Source: Nitrosomonas sp. PY1
Lineage (GTDB): Bacteria; Pseudomonadota; Gammaproteobacteria; Burkholderiales; Nitrosomonadaceae
Assembly: GCF_022836435.1 (NCBI RefSeq)
Contig: NZ_BQXC01000001.1
Span: 534,400-598,399 of the forward strand
DNA: 64,000 nt
Direction of reading: 5' to 3'
Positions 15,389 to 24,705 of the stretch are shown in pieces (position 1 is the stretch's first letter; every line of letters starts with the position of its first letter). The position numbers and the translations under genes are program-made. The notes below the pieces were generated by a model, which was not told where the DNA came from, searched no databases, and worked only from the letters and a program-made list of their open reading frames with translations.

Positions 15389-16939
15389 TTATTTCTTGTG
15401 TTGAGCGATTAAGAGATCTGGTAATTCTTTAAGAAACCGCCCGGTACTTATCATTTGATGTCGTAGCATGTTCCAGTTCTCAGCATTTTTTCGTGCGTCC
15501 AAGCAACGCATCAAACGCATACGTAATGCTTCGTTTTGTGTGTTCAAGATTGCAGACCAAAGTGCGTCATCCACGTTATACACTTTATCTGTGGATAAGC
15601 TTACCGGAATCACATGCTCAATTGGCACGGCCAGATCATTGGCAACCGCTTGTATGGCTCGATTAATGTTGAGCGATTTAGTATCGCCGGTATCGTTTAA
15701 ATCATAGGGGGGCTGCCATTCATTGATGGGTCGCAAGCGGTCAATGAAGCTGACTACTACCAATAAAGGTGATGCATGGCGGTGCGTACGCGCAGTTTGG
15801 AATGCGCGTAGTGCATCGAGGCTATCGCGCTCAATTTGCCGATCAGGACGATCGGCCGGTGTAATCCACAGAATCAAATCTACTTCACCAGCGGCTTTTA
15901 GCATTTGTTCTTGATTGAATAGGGAGCTATCGCAGCCTGGGCTATCCAGGATAATTGCTTGTGACAAACCTTCGCGGGTTAGAACAAACGGTTTGAGAAG
16001 ATCGGTAGTGTCTGGCAATGTATCTGTCGCAGTGATGGAGTCTCCAAATAGCGCATTGATTAGGCTGGATTTTCCTGAATTTGAGCGACCTAAGACCAAA
16101 ATGCGCAAAGGTTCGTCACGCAGTTTTGTGAGGGTATCCGTTGCTTGTGTCAAATCGATTTCGGAAACAGGAGTGATCGCATCGGGTTGTTCGATACCTA
16201 ATGATAAGCGTCCACTATAAAGATCAATAGCGTAGTAACCGACTTTACGCACATAGGTACGTAAAAACCAGCGATGCAACTCATCTTTTGCCAACATGAA
16301 GCTGCGCTCACGTAAATGGCGCCATGTTTCACTGAGTAATGCATTGACAGGATTGACAATGATATTGCCAGCGCGATAGATGTTGAACAGTTGCTCTGCT
16401 TTAGTTTTCCAGCGTTGAATACGAAATAAATCACCGAGAGTCAGTCGATGACTGAAAGGGATCTTTTCGGCAACATCACGGCGTAAATCTCGGCTGGCAC
16501 GCTCAATAATCAATAGCGTATGCGGAATGGTCAGTTCTAGTAAGGGTTTCTCAACATCTGGGTGATAATTATGCGCAACTGTTTGCAAGGCTTGCTGTGC
16601 GAGTTGCAACGTCCATGCGCCATTTTCCAGCGGCCAATCTTTAGGATGTGTATTTTCCGCCAATGTTTCCACTTGCTTCCATACAGTATCCGCGCTGGGG
16701 GGCCAGATTGGATTTGGGATTGTGGTGGCATCCTGTAGTAACTTACTTTCGCGCTGTACAAGCCAAGATTGTAAGCCGTAACTCAACACACCGCATACTG
16801 TAAGCACAATCAACCAAGTTACCAAATAATCACTTTGCCACAGCCATATGACGCCGAAGCCAAGTAAAGCTAGTATTGGTAATATCAATAACAAAAATAC
16901 CAATACCCTAAGTGGGTTGAGTAACGAAAAATATTTCAT
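15389..16939 (-). CDS. Membrane-anchored dynamin/Era-like GTPase
   Basis: A 516-residue protein. Two N-terminal membrane segments (about residues 11-33 and 39-58) precede a cytoplasmic helical region (60-270) and a P-loop GTPase domain: G1 GRSNSGKSS at 284-292, a TT-containing switch (LPDTTD), G3 DSPGCD and a weak G4 in SFIDRL, where the usual N/TKxD is changed. The C-terminal 100 residues are helical. The start codon overlaps the stop of the partner GTPase by 4 bases. Related proteins are annotated only as GTPases of unknown role; stress or membrane function is a guess. Confidence 0.75.
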   Translation of the reverse strand: MKYFSLLNPLRVLVFLLLILPILALLGFGVIWLWQSDYLVTWLIVLTVCGVLSYGLQSWLVQRESKLLQDATTIPNPIWPPSADTVWKQVETLAENTHPKDWPLENGAWTLQLAQQALQTVAHNYHPDVEKPLLELTIPHTLLIIERASRDLRRDVAEKIPFSHRLTLGDLFRIQRWKTKAEQLFNIYRAGNIIVNPVNALLSETWRHLRERSFMLAKDELHRWFLRTYVRKVGYYAIDLYSGRLSLGIEQPDAITPVSEIDLTQATDTLTKLRDEPLRILVLGRSNSGKSSLINALFGDSITATDTLPDTTDLLKPFVLTREGLSQAIILDSPGCDSSLFNQEQMLKAAGEVDLILWITPADRPDRQIERDSLDALRAFQTARTHRHASPLLVVVSFIDRLRPINEWQPPYDLNDTGDTKSLNINRAIQAVANDLAVPIEHVIPVSLSTDKVYNVDDALWSAILNTQNEALRMRLMRCLDARKNAENWNMLRHQMISTGRFLKELPDLLIAQHKK

Positions 16940-18171
16940 TCGGATTTATTCGACTTACTTGAGCGTTGTTTCAAAATCAAAGCACCGCGCTTTAATTCCT
17001 CGGCATACAGCCGACGCAGTGAATCGGGGTCAATATTCAATCCATTTTTTCGTTGCGCGAAGAAATAAATCGCTGCTTTACCTAATGCATACGTGGAAGA
17101 TCCAGTTGAGGCGACGCTCCATAGGGTACCGATTGTTTGGCCCCAAACTGGGATGATTTTTACTGCCGTTCGGGTCAACCATCGAGTCAAATAACTTGAT
17201 GCGATGCCTACCCCCATCAATCCTAGAAATTCACTGATAGTACTTTGATCCCAATGCTGTCCGTACAGCTTAGCCAAGCCATGCAGCATCTTTGCTTGAA
17301 CTGCCGAAACGCTAACCAGATCGACTACCGGCAGGGCGCCTAAGCCTGCAGCAGTGAAGGTATAACCGACAATGTGTTGATGTGCGGCACGCGCATAGAT
17401 ATCGCGTACTTCCTTGCCACCACTAAGATGATATTGTAAACCTAAGGGAGATAATGCTTCGATTTTTTGCCACAACTCCTCCAAGCCGTATTCTACGGGA
17501 CTAAAACCGTCTTCCGGTAAAGTCAAATCCACTGCGACCCACTGTACCGGCGCGAAGCCGGGTAATGGTTTGAGGCTATTACGCTGCGATTGCAATGCAC
17601 GGCGCAAATTCAGCGGAATGCTGTCGGGCAGTGGATCGTCGTCGTAAGGCCAAGGTAGGATATGCGTGAAACTGTTGGGATAAAGATCATGTAATCCAGT
17701 TTGTACGATCAATACTGGCCACTCGGGGTGGTGTTTACGAATCGTGTGTAGTACGTCAAAAACACTGATTTGACTGAGATCGGCGACTTTCATCACGGCA
17801 ATTAACAAATGTGCTTGTGTTTCGCAGTAGCGGATGTCTTCGCTGGGATCATAAGAAACCTCGCCGAGTCCACGCGTATCTAGGAACCGTACGATCGGTG
17901 CTGGTGTAGGAAAATCGTAAAACTGCGAAGTTCTCGTGCACGGCTGAAATCCGTTACCGATTTCAGCCGCCTCACTACCGGTCAATGCCTTGATGATCGA
18001 AGTTTTGCCAGCTTGGGTTTTACCGAGTAGCCACAAAACCGGTATCGGTACCTGTTGGCGTGCGGCGCGCAAAGAAGCATCCAGAACATCAGGATCGATT
18101 TTTGGTGATGTAAATGCCGCGCGCAACTGTTCCCAGTAACCGCTCCAATTTTCTAAGTCATTCCATTTCAT
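16936..18171 (-). CDS. P-loop GTPase with DUF697-like C-terminal membrane domain
   Basis: A 411-residue protein with an N-terminal GTPase: G1 GKTQAGKTS at 50-58, TRTS as the likely switch Thr, G3 DTRGLGE at 98-104 and a degenerate G4 (QTGLHD). The C-terminal 160 residues resemble DUF697, with hydrophobic segments including TAAGLGALPVVDLVSVSAVQ and GLMGVGIASSYL, as in YcjF-like proteins. It is translated just before the second GTPase (4-base ATGA-type overlap), so the pair probably works together at the inner membrane. The two are not close copies of each other. Confidence 0.75.
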   Translation of the reverse strand: MKWNDLENWSGYWEQLRAAFTSPKIDPDVLDASLRAARQQVPIPVLWLLGKTQAGKTSIIKALTGSEAAEIGNGFQPCTRTSQFYDFPTPAPIVRFLDTRGLGEVSYDPSEDIRYCETQAHLLIAVMKVADLSQISVFDVLHTIRKHHPEWPVLIVQTGLHDLYPNSFTHILPWPYDDDPLPDSIPLNLRRALQSQRNSLKPLPGFAPVQWVAVDLTLPEDGFSPVEYGLEELWQKIEALSPLGLQYHLSGGKEVRDIYARAAHQHIVGYTFTAAGLGALPVVDLVSVSAVQAKMLHGLAKLYGQHWDQSTISEFLGLMGVGIASSYLTRWLTRTAVKIIPVWGQTIGTLWSVASTGSSTYALGKAAIYFFAQRKNGLNIDPDSLRRLYAEELKRGALILKQRSSKSNKSE

Positions 18172-18346
18172 TGTCCCATCTTAACATTTCTGGGAAATGG
18201 CTAAAATCCAAAATGGTGCGGGTTGTTGCTATGGTTGTTAGAACGTTAAGCTAGGCGGTGTGTTATGGAGTATCTGATTTTCGTAGAAAAGTGACTTAAT
18301 CTCTTCTGGATTCTATGTGAATTAAATGTTTTGTAACAAAAACTAC

Positions 18347-19132
18347 TTAGAGGAGATGCTTTGTACCAAGAATTATTTGATGCGCTTGTAATTTTTTTAT
18401 GATTTCTAAACCACCTTGAATTACTACCTCAGGATTCGGATGATTCAATTCAACAGCAATTTGCTGTAACAAATACTCACACGATTTATGAGTATTGTTG
18501 AGTAGTTGCATTAAACGGGCAGTGACAGCATTCACTTCCATAAAATGTACGACAAAATCCGCGTTACGATAAACGATCAAATGAATTAATTCTTTACAAG
18601 GAATTTGTGGTTGAAAGGTGGGGCTAATCTGATGAACCGGGAATTGGTAGCTGAGCATCCAAGCCAGTGGAGAAATGACAGGAGTACCTGTTAACAGATC
18701 ACCATTAGGATCAAAGGTCGTTTGTTCGATTTCTACATCCAATGTCGAAATGGCGAGTTCAACCCATTCGTAATGCGCCAATTCCAACATGAAAGGAGGA
18801 TCATCAGTAGAGGCATGGCGCTCATGTTGTAGATATTTGAGAAATTCTCGCGGCATTTCAGGGAATAATGGCGTATGTGCTAAGTGGCTAGAAAAATAAT
18901 CACGTATTATGGTGTGCCATTGATTATCCGGAAGAACTTTGCGTAATACCGGATAGGCATTTGCGATAAAGTCTTCTACATTACGGTAAAATAAGTCGCT
19001 GTATACGTCCATGCGTTGTGGATTTATACCTTTAGGACAAGCGTTTTTTTGGGGATTGCGGATATAGGCTGCAAAAGCGTATTGCAGTGCGGTAAAATCG
19101 TTAAGATCAGTCTTGTCGCTTATGGTATTCAC
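18347..19132 (-). CDS. hvfC: HvfC/BufC-like DUF2063 partner of an MNIO peptide-modifying enzyme
   Basis: A 261-residue protein with a helical N-terminal DUF2063 domain (LQYAFAAYIRNP, then YRNVEDFIANAYPVLRKVLP) and a C-terminal domain resembling a precursor-recognition fold. In known MNIO systems the DUF2063 protein forms a complex with the DUF692 enzyme and brings the leader of the precursor to it. Start is GTG 19132, giving a 26-base overlap with the upstream hvfB, the usual close arrangement. There is no nearer ATG at the expected N-terminus. Last gene of the set on this strand; no DoxX-like fourth gene follows. Confidence 0.85.
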   Translation of the reverse strand: MNTISDKTDLNDFTALQYAFAAYIRNPQKNACPKGINPQRMDVYSDLFYRNVEDFIANAYPVLRKVLPDNQWHTIIRDYFSSHLAHTPLFPEMPREFLKYLQHERHASTDDPPFMLELAHYEWVELAISTLDVEIEQTTFDPNGDLLTGTPVISPLAWMLSYQFPVHQISPTFQPQIPCKELIHLIVYRNADFVVHFMEVNAVTARLMQLLNNTHKSCEYLLQQIAVELNHPNPEVVIQGGLEIIKKLQAHQIILGTKHLL

Positions 19133-19958
19133 GATTTCTTTCTTGCCACTGAGCTTGTATGGCTTGAATGTTAGTAATTTCTTTCAGTAATTCGGGCAGC
19201 GGGGGGATGTTGAAATCCCGCTCCAATAAAGTTGGAATGACACCAAAATGCTGATATGCATTATTCAATAATTGCCATACCGGGGCTATTACATCGGCAC
19301 CGTGGGTATCAATGATCAGATCTTCTGCCTCGTTGTAATGTCCGGCGATATGGATATAAGCAATACGTTCGGCAGGTAATCGATGTAGAAAAGCTTGAGC
19401 GTCATAACCGTGGTTGACACTGTTGACATAAATATTGTTGACATCCAGTAACAGATTGCAATCGGCTTCTTGCAGTACTGCATTCAGAAAGTCGATTTCC
19501 TCCATCTCTTGACCCGGTGCGACGTAGTACGAGACATTCTCGATTGCGATACGTTGTTCGAGTTGCTCTTGTACTTGCTTGATTCGATTTGCAACGTAAC
19601 GAACCGCCTGTTCGGTGAATGGTATTGGCATCAAATCGTACAGGTGGCCATCATCACTGCAATAGCTCAAATGTTCACTGTAATAGCGAATATTATGTTC
19701 ACGCAGGAATTTTTTTAGTTTCTGCAAAAAAGCTTGGTCAAGCGGCGTAGGGCCACCAATCGAAAGCGACAAACCATGACAGATGAAAGGATGCTTTTCA
19801 GTCAGTTCGTGAAGTTTTTTACCAAAATAGCCGCCTACACCTATCCAGTTTTCCGGTGCAATTTCCCAGAAATTAACGCTATCGGTTGAATGATCCGAAA
19901 GCGAGCGTATAAACGCTCGCCGTAGCCCTAAGCCTGCACCATGAACGGGATAGTTCAT
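19107..19958 (-). CDS. hvfB: MNIO (DUF692) multinuclear iron oxidative enzyme, HvfB/BufB-like
   Basis: A 283-residue TIM-barrel DUF692 protein. Family metal-ligand motifs are all present: HGLSLSIGG, YYSEHLSY, IENVSYY, LLLDVNNIYVN, YIHIAGHYN, DTHG and LLERD. MNIO enzymes use two or three iron ions and O2 to modify Cys residues of a peptide precursor, giving oxazolone-thioamide or 5-thiooxazole groups that bind metal. The substrate is almost certainly the EGKCG-rich peptide encoded immediately upstream. ATG 19958 is preferred; TTG 19970 would add four residues, and neither has a clear ribosome site. Confidence 0.9.
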   Translation of the reverse strand: MNYPVHGAGLGLRRAFIRSLSDHSTDSVNFWEIAPENWIGVGGYFGKKLHELTEKHPFICHGLSLSIGGPTPLDQAFLQKLKKFLREHNIRYYSEHLSYCSDDGHLYDLMPIPFTEQAVRYVANRIKQVQEQLEQRIAIENVSYYVAPGQEMEEIDFLNAVLQEADCNLLLDVNNIYVNSVNHGYDAQAFLHRLPAERIAYIHIAGHYNEAEDLIIDTHGADVIAPVWQLLNNAYQHFGVIPTLLERDFNIPPLPELLKEITNIQAIQAQWQERNREYHKRQD

Positions 19959-19987
19959 ATTATTGTGCAACGCTTTGAGTGAGCGGA

Positions 19988-20326
19988 TTATTTCTTATTG
20001 CTTCCGCATTTACCTTCACCGCACTTACCTTCTTTTTCGGATTTCTTGTCGCCACACTTACCTTCCATATTCTTTTTCATTTCATCTTTGTTGCCACACT
20101 TGCCTTCACCACATTTACCTTCCTGAGCCGGTTTTTTATCGTCGTGCTTAGGTTTGTCAGCGGCATCGGCCTGCGCTAATTGCATATAGCCACCCGCTAG
20201 TTCTTTCATTGCGAAAGGATTAGCGTTGTTTATTTCGGTATTGGCCGACAGACTGCTGATAGTCAGAGTAGAAACAAAAGCGGTGCCTAATACAATTGAA
20301 GCTGGTTTGATTATTTTTTTTGACAT
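19988..20326 (-). CDS. hvfA: HvfA/bufferin-type peptide precursor with five EGKCG motifs
   Basis: A 112-residue precursor. Residues 1-28 form a Sec-like signal (hydrophobic IVLGTAFVSTLTISSLSA). Then comes the conserved leader-like NPFAMKELAGGYMQLAQAD (36-54), a Lys/Asp linker, and a core with EGKCG at 69-73, 74-78, 88-92, 99-103 and 104-108. All five Cys of the protein lie in these motifs. This is the organisation of HvfA metallophores and copper-binding bufferins, where the Cys of EGKCG are converted by the MNIO enzyme. AAGGAAAA precedes the ATG. The Met-Lys-Lys-Asn spacer splits the core into 2+1+2 motifs. Confidence 0.9.
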   Translation of the reverse strand: MSKKIIKPASIVLGTAFVSTLTISSLSANTEINNANPFAMKELAGGYMQLAQADAADKPKHDDKKPAQEGKCGEGKCGNKDEMKKNMEGKCGDKKSEKEGKCGEGKCGSNKK

Positions 20327-20378
20327 AAAATTTTCCTTTAAGAATTAAAACTGGAACTTCGAATCATAGCGTTAAAAT

Positions 20379-21383
20379 CTAACGATGTGTTTCATTATTT
20401 TTGGTGGGATTTACTAGCCAGCGCGTAGACATTCCCGCAATCATATGATCATCCACATGACAATGAAATAACCAGTTGCCCGCAGATCGAGGAACCATAT
20501 CGACAGAAATCATGCTAGCCGGTAGTACTTCGATGACATCTGTGCGTCGACCGTGATTAAGTACAGTTTGCCCATGCCAATGGACAGTATGGTTGTCTGT
20601 TTCGTTCCCAAGCGCCATCAAATGCCAGCGAATCCGTTCGCCGATAACCGTTTCATAACCAGAGAGATTACCAAAGATACGCCCATTTATGGTATGTTTC
20701 ATACCGCTTTCTTCATCATTTTCTTCATTGAAAATCATGAATAGTGCGGTGAATTCATGATCGACATCCTTCGGGGTTGGGTCGGTATTCGAACGCACTT
20801 TGTCTGCACGTGTTACGACGATGGTGCCAATTAAACCAAGATTGGTTTCTTCTTCTCCCATTACGTGCGAGTGATACAACCATACTACCGATGACAGATC
20901 GCTTGGGCCGGGTCCGGCATCTTCATCAACAATCCAGGTATAGGTAAAACTTTTTCCCGGCGGAATACTGCTACCTTGACCGCCATCTGCGCCCTCATTG
21001 TCTTTGGTATATTTCATTCCGTGCGGATGCATAGAAAGAGGTCGGTCTGTTTTATTGAGAAAATGAACCTTAAGTGTATCTCCGACCGCAGCACGAAGTT
21101 GCGGGCCTAGAATTCCCATCCATTCAGGCTGGGAAGATGGCTTTGAGTAACTGCTATCGGTATACCCGATATAACGATATTTGGTGTAAGTTAAAGTTTT
21201 TCCCCATACATTCATATCATCGTGCGAGTTTATTAAATTTTTGCTTGAAGGCGCATAATTCCAAGTTACTTGTTCAGCAGCAATCCAGTATTCCCTGACG
21301 GATGCTTGCGTTGAAAAAGAATAAGCTGCTAAAAAATATAAAAATAATAACTTGAAGGTATTTGTATTACGAAAAGAAATCAT
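20379..21383 (-). CDS. Two-domain multicopper oxidase, ceruloplasmin/hephaestin-like
   Basis: A 334-residue exported oxidase (signal core LLFLYFLAAYSFS, cut after TQA). The mature start REYWIAAEQVTWNYAP resembles single repeats of ceruloplasmin and hephaestin. Copper ligands of both cupredoxin domains are visible: SMHPHGM, LYHSHVMGEE, HTVHWHGQ and the C-terminal HCHVDDHMIAGM, which supplies the type 1 Cys and His plus axial Met. Length fits a trimeric two-domain oxidase. Possible roles are Cu(I) or Fe(II) oxidation in the periplasm. It starts 22 bp after the DUF2325 gene and ends 53 bp before the peptide precursor, so likely shares its transcript. Confidence 0.88.
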   Translation of the reverse strand: MISFRNTNTFKLLFLYFLAAYSFSTQASVREYWIAAEQVTWNYAPSSKNLINSHDDMNVWGKTLTYTKYRYIGYTDSSYSKPSSQPEWMGILGPQLRAAVGDTLKVHFLNKTDRPLSMHPHGMKYTKDNEGADGGQGSSIPPGKSFTYTWIVDEDAGPGPSDLSSVVWLYHSHVMGEEETNLGLIGTIVVTRADKVRSNTDPTPKDVDHEFTALFMIFNEENDEESGMKHTINGRIFGNLSGYETVIGERIRWHLMALGNETDNHTVHWHGQTVLNHGRRTDVIEVLPASMISVDMVPRSAGNWLFHCHVDDHMIAGMSTRWLVNPTKNNETHR

Positions 21384-21404
21384 TACAGACTAAAAATAAA
21401 ATCA

Positions 21405-22046
21405 TCAATTATTCGGTAGATTAACCATAGCTTTTTGTGGCAAGCCAGTAAATCCACTTACCCAACTTGCTAATGCATGGATTCCTTGTCGGAAGGCAGT
21501 TAATGTTGATCGATCTAATATAACACAAGGTTTTTCAGAGAACTGGCAATAGCATTTGACAATAATAAACACCTGGTGATTGATACAGTCAATCGGACAA
21601 ACGATCATATCTGTTTTTTCTAGAAGCTGCAGTAATCGTTCAATGGATACATCATCTGGAGCGCCGTGAAAGGACATGAATTGCGCTCCTGTTTTTTGGG
21701 TAAGCCGTTCATATTCCATATAAAGGTTTTTACGGCCTCCAATACACAGAACGGATTGGCCTGATAAGTCACATTCATTCTGAACGTTAATCGGCTTGAT
21801 CGTATTGTATTTTTCCGCTGACAACGTTTTGATCAACCTAGGTTGGAATTTTTGTTGCAATGAGCTTCGAGTCGATTTATGGCGTTGGGAGTTTTTGGAA
21901 ATATTTGATTTTCGATACGAAGATAAAAGTTTGAAATTCTTATGGAAGAGTCTCAGAAAGTTATCGATTAATGCAAAAGATCGATTAGAAGCAATCGAAT
22001 GAAACGTATTGCTTATTGTCAACACAGGATTTCTTAATGCTCTCAT
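21405..22046 (-). CDS. DUF2325 domain protein
   Basis: A 213-residue protein. The last 100 residues form a DUF2325 domain: SVLCIGGRKNLYMEYERL, MSFHGAPDD, then IVCPIDCINHQ and a Cys/Tyr-containing strand KCYCQFSEKPCVIL. The N-terminal 110 residues are basic, Ser-rich and unlike anything I recognise, so the N-terminal part may be specific to this group. The start has a strong CAGGGGGTT ribosome site. Cys and His in the domain suggest a possible metal- or redox-responsive role. As the first gene of the multicopper oxidase/peptide set it could be a regulator, but that is inference. Confidence 0.75.
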   Translation of the reverse strand: MRALRNPVLTISNTFHSIASNRSFALIDNFLRLFHKNFKLLSSYRKSNISKNSQRHKSTRSSLQQKFQPRLIKTLSAEKYNTIKPINVQNECDLSGQSVLCIGGRKNLYMEYERLTQKTGAQFMSFHGAPDDVSIERLLQLLEKTDMIVCPIDCINHQVFIIVKCYCQFSEKPCVILDRSTLTAFRQGIHALASWVSGFTGLPQKAMVNLPNN

Positions 22047-22124
22047 AATCGAACCCCCTGAATTTTATTCATAAAGAAAAAATCGCTTGCTGACCTGGGA
22101 GGATTAGGCTGGCTGGCTAAATAA

Positions 22125-22155
22125 GCTGCTGGAGAAGGAAGAGAACTCCAGCAGC
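22125..22155 (-). terminator. Stem-loop terminator after bacterioferritin gene
   Basis: A perfect 10-bp GC-rich stem (22125-22134, GCTGCTGGAG, with 22146-22155) and an 11-base loop, just downstream of bfr in the minus direction. The sequence after it on the minus strand is TTATTTA, so the U-tract is weak, but the stem should separate bfr from the DUF2325 operon. Confidence 0.6.
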
Positions 22156-22166
22156 GTTGGAAAAAC

Positions 22167-22631
22167 TTACATCTGACTTTGTAACCAATTTTGAATACCG
22201 ACTTTCTGTATAACATCGAGCTGCGTTTCTAACCAGTCGATGTGTTCTTCAGTATCTTCAAGTATATGCTTAAATAATTCACGAGAAATAAAATCGCTTG
22301 CGTCTTCACAAGCTGCAATGGCTTTGAGTAATGACTCTCTAGCGATTATTTCAAGTTTTAGATCACAAGCGACGCATTCTTGTGCGCTTTCTCCGATCAT
22401 TAGCTTGCCCAAATCTTGTAAATTGGGTAAGCCTTCCAAAAAAAGAATCCGCTCAATTAATTCATCAGCATGCTTCATTTCTTCGCAGGATTCTTCAAAT
22501 TCATGCTTGCCAAGACTATGAAATCCCCAGTTTTTATACATGCGGGCATGTAGAAAGTATTGATTAATAGCGGTTAGTTCGTGTAGTAATTGCTGATTTA
22601 AGTGACGGATAATCTCTGTGTTACCTTTCAT
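22167..22631 (-). CDS. bfr: Bacterioferritin
   Basis: A 154-residue haem-containing iron-storage protein forming 24-subunit shells. By direct count the haem ligand Met52 and ferroxidase ligands Glu18, Glu51, His54, Glu94 and His130 are present. The sixth ligand, Glu127 in E. coli Bfr, aligns with Thr in [13 protein letters not shown], with Glu at 128 and 129. The N-terminus [15 protein letters not shown] and the end QNWLQSQM match the family at full length. A Fur-box-bearing hemP gene lies upstream on the same strand, 143 bp away, consistent with iron-linked expression. Confidence 0.95.
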
Positions 22632-22774
22632 GGTTGTCTCCTATACAGGTAAAGGCACGGGTATGGGTATATTAAATATCAAAACATCGTTTCGAAAGAA
22701 TAACAAAATTACTATGCTACTCATCGATTCGTTCACAATATTAATATACCTGATTACCGCTTTAAATCCACATA

Positions 22775-22969
22775 CTATTTGTTCAAAAGTAGTTTTCCGT
22801 TACGTGTGCATCGTAATGAATACTGTTCTCCTTTGTGCGATATCAACACGATGTCACCATTTTTAAATAACCACTCGCTATCCAGAGTTTTTTGGGTGTT
22901 TTCTGTTGAACCTTTTGAATAAAAAATAGAATCAATGCTGTTGAGCTGAGAAGTATGTATTTTGTTCAT
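22775..22969 (-). CDS. hemP: Hemin uptake protein HemP
   Basis: A 64-residue protein whose second half (LFKNGDIVLISHKGEQYSLRCTRNGKLLLNK in overlapping segments) matches the small HemP family: a short beta-rich domain ending in GKLxLxK. HemP is usually encoded upstream of haem receptor genes and is iron-regulated; in some betaproteobacteria it activates the haem receptor promoter. A near-consensus Fur box lies 30 bp upstream. No TonB receptor gene is adjacent here; bfr is downstream instead. Confidence 0.82.
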   Translation of the reverse strand: MNKIHTSQLNSIDSIFYSKGSTENTQKTLDSEWLFKNGDIVLISHKGEQYSLRCTRNGKLLLNK

Positions 22970-22998
22970 ATAAAATATAAGTAGTAGTTAGAATTATT

Positions 22999-23017
22999 AA
23001 TGAGAATGATTATCATT
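22999..23017 (-). promoter_or_regulatory. Fur box upstream of hemP
   Basis: The 19-mer AATGAGAATGATTATCATT contains the core GAGAATGATTATCATT, a very close match to the Fur consensus built from GATAAT hexamers. It lies 30 bp upstream of hemP on the minus strand and should repress it when iron is plentiful. Confidence 0.8.
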
Positions 23018-23373
23018 ATAATCTGTTTTCTGAGAAATGCAAATTTTTATATAATCTGCAGAATATACGGTGATGGACTTCAAATTGATGTTCTGTGGTT
23101 TAGTTTCGCGATTTCTCAATTACAAAAATCAGGAAATATTTTTCTTGCTAGTTAAGAGCAATAGTTTTCTGATTGGTAAAAATAACAAACAATTTAGGCG
23201 GTTTTTGTGAAAATGCCTAGAAAAAATATTGTTTACAATAATTTTATGAGAATATGATTAATGCGAAAGTGTCGTACGAAGTGATGCGCCGGCTGGAAAG
23301 TACTAGTGAGTTTTAAAGGGGGGAAAGTTGCAAATGAAGCTTCAAATCGTTATTTTTATATACTCCAGAATAT
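23018..23373. other. Divergent intergenic region between hemP and the epsL-like gene
   Basis: With the hemP leader this makes about 400 bp without a gene. It is AT-rich and should hold both divergent promoters. Besides the Fur box at its left end I saw no clear operator, hairpin or small ORF. A purine-rich GGGGGGAAAG run lies about 50 bp before the plus-strand start. Confidence 0.5.
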
Positions 23374-24705
23374 ATGTGTAATGGATTCTATGATGTGATT
23401 TCATGTCTATTTCGAATACGCATTATCGCGATAATTTATTTATCAATGCTTGCCAGTTCAAATGTTGCTGCGGAGGATTTTGCTAAGTTTCTGCAGCCAT
23501 CGACGTTGGGACTTGGTAGAGTCATCCAGCCTTATTTTACTTACGGACTTGTCGTCGATGACAATATAATGAGGATTCGTAAAAGGTCTAATCCAAATCA
23601 ATTGGATGAATCCCAAGTAAAAGATGAGCTTTTAAAAGGCCATAAATCTGATATTACCAATCGATTTGTAGGGGGAGTTCTACTTAACAAAGAATTTGGT
23701 CGTCAGCGATTCACTGGTGATTTGAACTGGGCTTATAACAAATTTGAAAGATTCAGCGACATGAGTCAAGATTTTAAGAATGCTGCTGGTAGTTGGAATT
23801 GGGTCGTTGGTAAAAGATTGGAAGGTAATGTGGGAGTGACTTACAACGAATCATTAATGCCATTTTTATTTCAGCCAGGCGCTAAAATTCTTCGTACTCA
23901 ACAAACACAATTTGTCAATGGTGTATGGACAATTCATCCGCGATGGCGTTTTAACGGTGAATATCTCCGCTATGATCAGGATATAGGTAAAACCGATCTT
24001 GCTGCTAGTCAACGGGCGAGGAATCTTGCTCGTACTGAAAATCGTTTTGAAGGTGGAATCGATTATGTTACATATGGTAGGAATACCGTTGGCGTGCTTT
24101 TCCGGTACATCATAGGGGATTTTTCCCAAGCACCTAGTGTCGGTCCTGACGGAATTCCAATAAGCAGCGATTTTGATCAAAAAGAGGTCATGGGGAAAGT
24201 GAGTTGGGCCGTTACTGAGAAATCCCATTTTTTGGTGACAGGGGGGTGGGTTGAGCGCTTAAACAAAAGCCTTAAACAGCGTAATTTTAGTGGATTTAAT
24301 GCACGTGGTATTTATACTTGGAAAATGACAGAGAAACTGGGGTTCAGCGTTAACGGTTGGCGTATAACTTCTGCCATGGGTAACTTAACCGCGAACTTCA
24401 GCTTAAACACCGGTGTCAGCGTGCATCCCTACTGGCAGATTACCGAAAAAATTCGGTTTGAAGGGGATTTATCTTACGAAAAAAGGAAATTCGATCGACT
24501 CACAGCTCTTTTTGACAATGCGGAGGTTACTGGTACTAAAAATACATTTCGAAATGTGGCCTTGAGAGCAGTTTACCTACCCCATCCAAGTTTGGTATTA
24601 AGTACTTCTATTTTTCATTCTGATTTAAGTACTGATGCTGTGGTGGGTGGTTTTAATGCAAATGGCGTTACCGCTAATTTGCAGTATGTGTATGGAAAAC
24701 GATGA
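23374..24705 (+). CDS. EpsL-like outer-membrane beta-barrel for exopolysaccharide
   Basis: A 443-residue exported protein. After a signal peptide (IRIIAIIYLSMLASSNVAA) the mature chain alternates polar and hydrophobic residues with many Tyr/Trp/Phe and strand-like segments such as RFTGDLNWAYNKFERF and GRNTVGVLFRYIIGDF, ending in LQYVYGKR, typical of an outer-membrane barrel. The pattern fits EpsL, the barrel protein linked to exosortase-B-type polysaccharide clusters in betaproteobacteria. The stop overlaps the following sugar-phosphate transferase by 4 bases, supporting a polysaccharide role. Family assignment is from memory of the pattern; other capsule barrels are possible. Confidence 0.7.
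   Translation: MCNGFYDVISCLFRIRIIAIIYLSMLASSNVAAEDFAKFLQPSTLGLGRVIQPYFTYGLVVDDNIMRIRKRSNPNQLDESQVKDELLKGHKSDITNRFVGGVLLNKEFGRQRFTGDLNWAYNKFERFSDMSQDFKNAAGSWNWVVGKRLEGNVGVTYNESLMPFLFQPGAKILRTQQTQFVNGVWTIHPRWRFNGEYLRYDQDIGKTDLAASQRARNLARTENRFEGGIDYVTYGRNTVGVLFRYIIGDFSQAPSVGPDGIPISSDFDQKEVMGKVSWAVTEKSHFLVTGGWVERLNKSLKQRNFSGFNARGIYTWKMTEKLGFSVNGWRITSAMGNLTANFSLNTGVSVHPYWQITEKIRFEGDLSYEKRKFDRLTALFDNAEVTGTKNTFRNVALRAVYLPHPSLVLSTSIFHSDLSTDAVVGGFNANGVTANLQYVYGKR

Follow-up and report, generated by a model that had tools for sequence, protein, structure and literature searches.

A probable Fur-controlled iron operon with a copper-peptide pathway joined at its 3′ end in Nitrosomonas sp. PY1

The minus strand of Nitrosomonas sp. 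PY1 carries a run of seven co-directional genes: hemP, bfr, DUF2325, a multicopper oxidase (MCO) gene, an EGKCG precursor gene, an HvfB-type MNIO gene and hvfC. In our judgement, this run is probably a Fur-controlled iron operon, hemP–bfr–(structured RNA)–DUF2325–MCO, to which the HvfABC pathway (oxazolin/captophorin) was joined at the 3′ end in one Nitrosomonas lineage. EGKCG/5-thiooxazole peptides are common; their physiological role is unsettled and usually put down to copper or oxidative stress. The position of such a pathway behind a Fur box and beside a ceruloplasmin-like oxidase raises a testable question: does iron starvation drive production of a copper peptide? Ammonia oxidisers require both iron and copper, and the occurrence of this arrangement in some ammonia-oxidising Nitrosomonas suggests that iron control is linked to copper handling.

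The window is the whole stretch of DNA analysed, 64,000 nt of contig NZ_BQXC01000001.1. Its relevant features, from the promoter onwards, are:

23015..23043, minus strand: sigma-70-like promoter TTTGCA-17-TATAAT, overlapped by the Fur box (consensus match only)
23002..23020, minus strand: Fur-box-like site TATAATGATAATCATTCTC (17/19 to consensus)
22775..22969, minus strand: hemP, hemin-uptake-protein family (PF10636, E 3.1e-14)
22167..22631, minus strand: bfr, bacterioferritin (TIGR00754, 236 bits, above cut-off)
22071..22166, minus strand: conserved structured RNA with two helices, AGCCAGCC-type strings and a U-tract (covariation; model R1, E 2.4e-25)
21405..22046, minus strand: DUF2325 protein with a variable N-terminal extension (PF10087, E 6.5e-18)
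20379..21383, minus strand: predicted secreted two-domain MCO, ceruloplasmin-like, type-1 copper in domain 2 (Cu-oxidase_3 and Cu-oxidase_2)
19988..20326, minus strand: HvfA-type precursor with five EGKCG motifs (NF050137, 48 bits against a cut-off of 19.5)
19107..19970, minus strand: HvfB-type MNIO maturase, TTG start, in-frame ATG at 19958 (NF003818, 453 bits)
18347..19132, minus strand: HvfC partner protein, DUF2063 and NGO1945_C (NF050145, 300 bits)

A preliminary description of this DNA had placed five genes on one strand in the order DUF2325, MCO, EGKCG precursor, MNIO and HvfC, and Pfam and NCBIfam assignments confirm it. The gaps given there (22, 53 and about 29 bp, followed by an overlap) were correct within one base: we measure 21, 52 and 17 bp, the last becoming 29 bp if the MNIO starts at its in-frame ATG, and the MNIO and HvfC genes overlap by 26 bp. 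These five genes are not the whole run, since bfr, hemP, the Fur box and the structured RNA lie upstream. Spacing is wider in that part, with 143 bp between hemP and bfr and 120 bp between bfr and DUF2325. No minus-strand terminator was found in the gaps of the run, and no further minus-strand promoter was called between the Fur-box promoter and the end of hvfC. Two overlapping GTPase-like genes (15389-18171, minus strand), the first with MMR_HSR1 and DUF697 domains, follow 175 bp after hvfC; the pair holds the same position in the two closest relatives (L088, L089).

The promoter is the best match (10/12) within 18100-23400. The Fur box lies over it and is conserved before hemP in relatives, which places the run in a putative Fur regulon. 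TATAATGATAATCATTCTC is present as a single exact copy genome-wide (reversed control, 0), and when 500 stretches of 250 nt were drawn at random from the window, the best score was 14. Among 54 hemP loci, 28 reach a Fur-box score of at least 15 and 33 of at least 14, while the Nitrosospira-type loci mostly carry a 12/19 variant, usually in the same place. All loci in which HvfABC is joined to the iron genes and the hemP region was read have a Fur box at 15-17/19; stand-alone hvfA genes have none. The genome encodes two Fur-family proteins, and Fur of N. europaea is functional (PMC3050691). The presence of bfr (22167-22631), an iron-storage gene, behind a Fur box would be surprising if Fur acted solely as a repressor at high iron.

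By sequence, the MCO is closest to ceruloplasmin. Ceruloplasmin is also the top match of its predicted fold (E ~4e-27, from a modest model with a mean pLDDT of 73). Residues E225, H230, E261 and D312 align with ceruloplasmin E935, H940, E272/E971 and D1025, which are iron ligands there (PMC3738974). All four are invariant in 16 MCO homologues, two of them just 44-45% identical. The likely type-1 copper ligands are H265, C308, H313 and M318, in domain 2. Against the models for CopA/CueO copper-resistance oxidases it scores far below cut-off: TIGR01480 gives 51.8 bits against 479 and NF008205 gives 27 against 525. Because the protein is ceruloplasmin-like and keeps all four iron ligands, sequence and fold model make it more likely a ferroxidase than a CueO/CopA-type oxidase. 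Ferroxidase-type MCOs can also oxidise Cu(I), so the enzyme may act as a cuprous oxidase as well. Many Nitrosomonas have a second MCO lineage (43-48% identical), which this genome lacks.

The HvfABC identification in the preliminary description was right, as HvfA-, HvfB- and HvfC-type models all score above cut-off (NF050137, as listed; NF003818, cut-off 360; NF050145, cut-off 142). The precursor falls below the cut-off of the HvfA equivalog NF050188 (33 against 95), and all five of its cysteines lie within its five EGKCG motifs. Five motifs are also found in the precursors of its closest relatives, and two in most precursors of joined loci that have no MCO (L091, L096, L104, L114, L124, L125). 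There is one MNIO gene and one EGKCG precursor gene in the genome. The closest solved relative of the MNIO is 3bww, and HvfC is related to 3dee. The absence of DoxX from the run, noticed at the outset, is confirmed: three DoxX genes lie elsewhere in the genome, and none was found near HvfABC in the run or in other Nitrosomonas loci, DoxX being common, not universal, in captophorin clusters. Characterised EGKCG products contain 5-thiooxazole and bind copper (PMC13097082, PMC13419390); in the fontiphorin peptide, each modified Cys is 4 Da lighter (PMC13097082).

The suggestion that DUF2325 may be a regulator is unsupported. A DNA-binding role was considered and rejected: Pfam finds no such domain, and the model gives no specific fold match in the PDB, with weak and generic Rossmann-type hits. 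The C-terminal domain is confidently predicted to be Rossmann-like, and C101, C150, D153, C154, H157, C167 and C174 are invariant. A metal or redox role fits this protein better than DNA binding.

Between bfr and DUF2325 lies a conserved structured RNA. Hairpin 1 keeps its shape while its letters vary, hairpin 2 is short, and the conserved strings are of the AGCCAGCC and AAGCCAGC types, together with the U-tract. In an alignment of 35 sequences, 95.3% of cells pair and 12 of the 14 pairs show two-sided changes. Covariation is 0.465 against 0.269 for shuffled data (0/500), and structures slid along the alignment reach at most 0.156. Model R1 finds the RNA in 116 of 125 Nitrosomonadaceae genomes, with one copy in this genome. 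Elsewhere in the order its matches are weak and limited to a few families, and a scan of 370 genomes from the class gave matches only in the two Nitrosomonas drawn. Rfam holds no family that matches the RNA or comes near the gathering score. A third helix (GGCAAG with CUUGCC before the start codon), seen at many loci and absent in the window, was discarded, as its mean of 5.0 lies within what shuffling of the downstream sequence yields (mean 4.72, maximum 5.03). We also rejected the RNA as a bfr 3′ UTR, since it precedes DUF2325 where bfr is absent and precedes other genes, and as a component of HvfABC, since it is far more widely distributed than the joined loci.

Extra copies of the RNA lie before TonB-dependent receptors (L293, L303 twice, L309, L311, L312), after bfr (L305-L307), after hemP (L308) and, in three genomes, upstream of the second-lineage MCO (L330, L331, L334). 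A Fur-like site scoring at least 14 lies within 300 nt upstream of 16 of 24 extra copies, against ~9% of windows, a background inflated by taking the windows from the same loci. L310 resembles the copies before TonB-dependent receptors, judged by likeness alone. In L293, a terminator-like hairpin with a T-run, attenuator-like, stands between the RNA and the receptor start. Outside the family (L321, L322, L326), the RNA precedes a conserved secreted protein (ADESLFG..KGAETLPKGA), and in L321 bfr is directly upstream. Further copies (L297, L299, L301, L294, L295) have Fur-like sites upstream and no obvious iron gene downstream, although one precedes hisG; as terminator-like hairpins follow some of them, these could be stand-alone sRNAs. 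As some copies have no obvious downstream gene, the RNA may be either a cis-regulator or an sRNA domain. We give somewhat less than an even chance to a wider proposal: that it founds a new family of iron-regulon leaders, nearly confined to Nitrosomonadaceae, which would set the expression of iron genes (TonB receptors, DUF2325-MCO, hemP/bfr neighbours) after Fur, possibly by sensing metal or binding a protein or sRNA, and which here would also control the copper-peptide pathway. An iron-linked regulator of this kind would add a new regulatory layer in nearly all Nitrosomonadaceae.

The history of the locus was followed in a survey of 125 Nitrosomonadaceae genomes. An MCO orthologue is present in ~55 of them, mostly with hemP and DUF2325 nearby and often with bfr, including N. 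europaea ATCC 25978 (L146) and Nitrosospira. At the loci read outside the family, the MCO has no hemP, bfr or DUF2325 neighbours. The unit hemP-(bfr)-DUF2325-MCO is old and widespread. HvfABC is usually located away from this iron block, commonly standing alone with no Fur box; the two are joined in 13 of 125 genomes. Five of the 125 have the order with MCO (the window, L032, L033, L036 and G036, where joining is inferred across a contig break between L037 and L087), and the others are joined without it (L088, L089, L091, L096, L104, L114, L124, L125). The joined order is found in a culturable strain, Nitrosomonas sp. Nm166 (L133/L033). The linkage of HvfABC with MCO and DUF2325 put forward in the preliminary description is real: the five-gene order recurs in four other Nitrosomonas genomes, so it is not due to chance, but within the family it is a minority arrangement.

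The MCO is dispensable from the joined arrangement. In L089 (6548-6695), from one of the nearest relatives, an in-frame remnant of the MCO C-terminus lies between DUF2325 and the precursor and the full gene is gone; the MCO was thus once present there and then deleted. In the bfr tree, all joined loci fall in one branch together with three unjoined ones (support 94/88), whereas the MNIO tree does not group the joined loci cleanly. A single joining event with later losses is likely, though the MNIO tree leaves it short of proof. In other families of the order, 40 HvfABC loci were read. Not one lies near hemP, bfr, DUF2325 or this MCO, and a Fur box scoring at least 15 within 1.5 kb upstream is absent from all of them.

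Taken as an iron operon that captured the peptide pathway, the locus could work as follows. At low iron, Fur would come off its box at 23002-23020, allowing transcription of the entire run. Intracellular iron would be managed by Bfr, while the secreted MCO, which requires copper, would oxidise periplasmic Fe(II) in the manner of ceruloplasmin. Working together, HvfB and HvfC would turn cysteines of the EGKCG motifs into 5-thiooxazoles; once exported, the peptide would bind Cu(I) in the periplasm and thereby buffer it, or hold it ready for as long as the copper-dependent iron system is active. Expression of the genes from DUF2325 onwards is probably tuned by the RNA in front of them. Iron and copper would then be coupled, a copper-dependent oxidase and a copper-binding peptide being made together under iron limitation. 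Against the iron-operon reading, the hemP-bfr and bfr-DUF2325 gaps leave room for internal control, transcription could stop at the RNA and its U-tract before reaching DUF2325, and the place of bfr is awkward if repression is all that Fur does.

The preliminary description had instead suggested Cu(I) oxidation by the MCO combined with copper capture by the modified peptide; as a full model, this is a copper-controlled module for copper stress with DUF2325 as its regulator. The copper affinity of characterised EGKCG peptides (PMC13097082), the frequent induction of related clusters by copper, gold or oxidative stress (PMC13097082) and the possible use of Cu(I) by ferroxidase-type MCOs agree with such a module. 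It is not the best reading, given the ceruloplasmin iron ligands and the Fur box with hemP and bfr in front, and we regard it as improbable; in addition, the CopA/CueO models stay far under cut-off, the partners that the MCO keeps across genomes are hemP and DUF2325 rather than HvfABC, and no DNA-binding domain was found in DUF2325. The peptide might also act on iron or haem, as an iron-regulated metallophore that delivers or protects iron. The iron-operon context, with hemP and bfr as neighbours and the Fur box, would suit this role, but soft sulfur ligands favour Cu(I), by established chemistry. Characterised EGKCG products, moreover, bind Cu (PMC13097082, PMC13419390), and a metallophore is in our view very improbable.

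Lastly, HvfABC may simply have landed behind the iron operon with no functional link, its expression coming from signals of its own or from incidental read-through. The rarity of joining and the prevalence of stand-alone HvfABC without a Fur box are in keeping with mere adjacency. So is the loss of the intervening MCO in close relatives. Those relatives kept HvfABC, which also counts against the captured-pathway reading, since MCO and HvfABC need not work together; nor is iron-peptide coupling essential, as HvfABC lies apart from the iron block in most Nitrosomonas. Yet the gaps are tight, no minus-strand promoter was called from the Fur promoter to hvfC, and the joined order has persisted where MNIO identity has fallen to ~72-75% and where the MCO was lost or is absent. 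We therefore consider adjacency alone unlikely and retain the Fur-controlled operon with a captured peptide pathway.

The text of the MNIO landscape paper mentions neither multicopper oxidase nor DUF2325 nor Nitrosomonas. A literature search covering few subscription papers found no account of EGKCG clusters under Fur or of DUF2325 with bacterioferritin, a weak sign of novelty.

Known systems resemble parts of this locus. Like oxazolin (HvfABC of Haemophilus influenzae) and captophorin/Buf_EGKCG clusters, it has an EGKCG precursor with a signal-peptide-like start, an HvfB-type MNIO and an HvfC with RRE/DUF2063, in the same order (PMC13419390, PMC13097082, PMC12452194); unlike them, it lacks DoxX and is preceded by a Fur box, hemP, bfr, DUF2325 and a ceruloplasmin-like MCO gene. 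Campylobacter jejuni Cj1384, a DUF2325 protein of 104 residues controlled by PerR and encoded beside katA, likewise places a cysteine-rich DUF2325 domain in a context of iron/haem and oxidative stress (PMC9426514), whereas the protein here has a long variable N-terminal extension and belongs to a Fur-type operon. Two-domain small laccases (Streptomyces SLAC type) share with the MCO two cupredoxin domains and type-1 copper in domain 2, but their sequence match of ~1e-15 is weaker than the 1e-148 reached by ceruloplasmin, a protein with repeats, and they rank lower in the fold search. Ferroxidases of the ceruloplasmin/hephaestin type are closest in sequence and predicted fold, with iron and type-1 copper ligands kept. 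They have six domains, while the predicted ferroxidase described here is a secreted bacterial protein of two, so a trimer would be needed.
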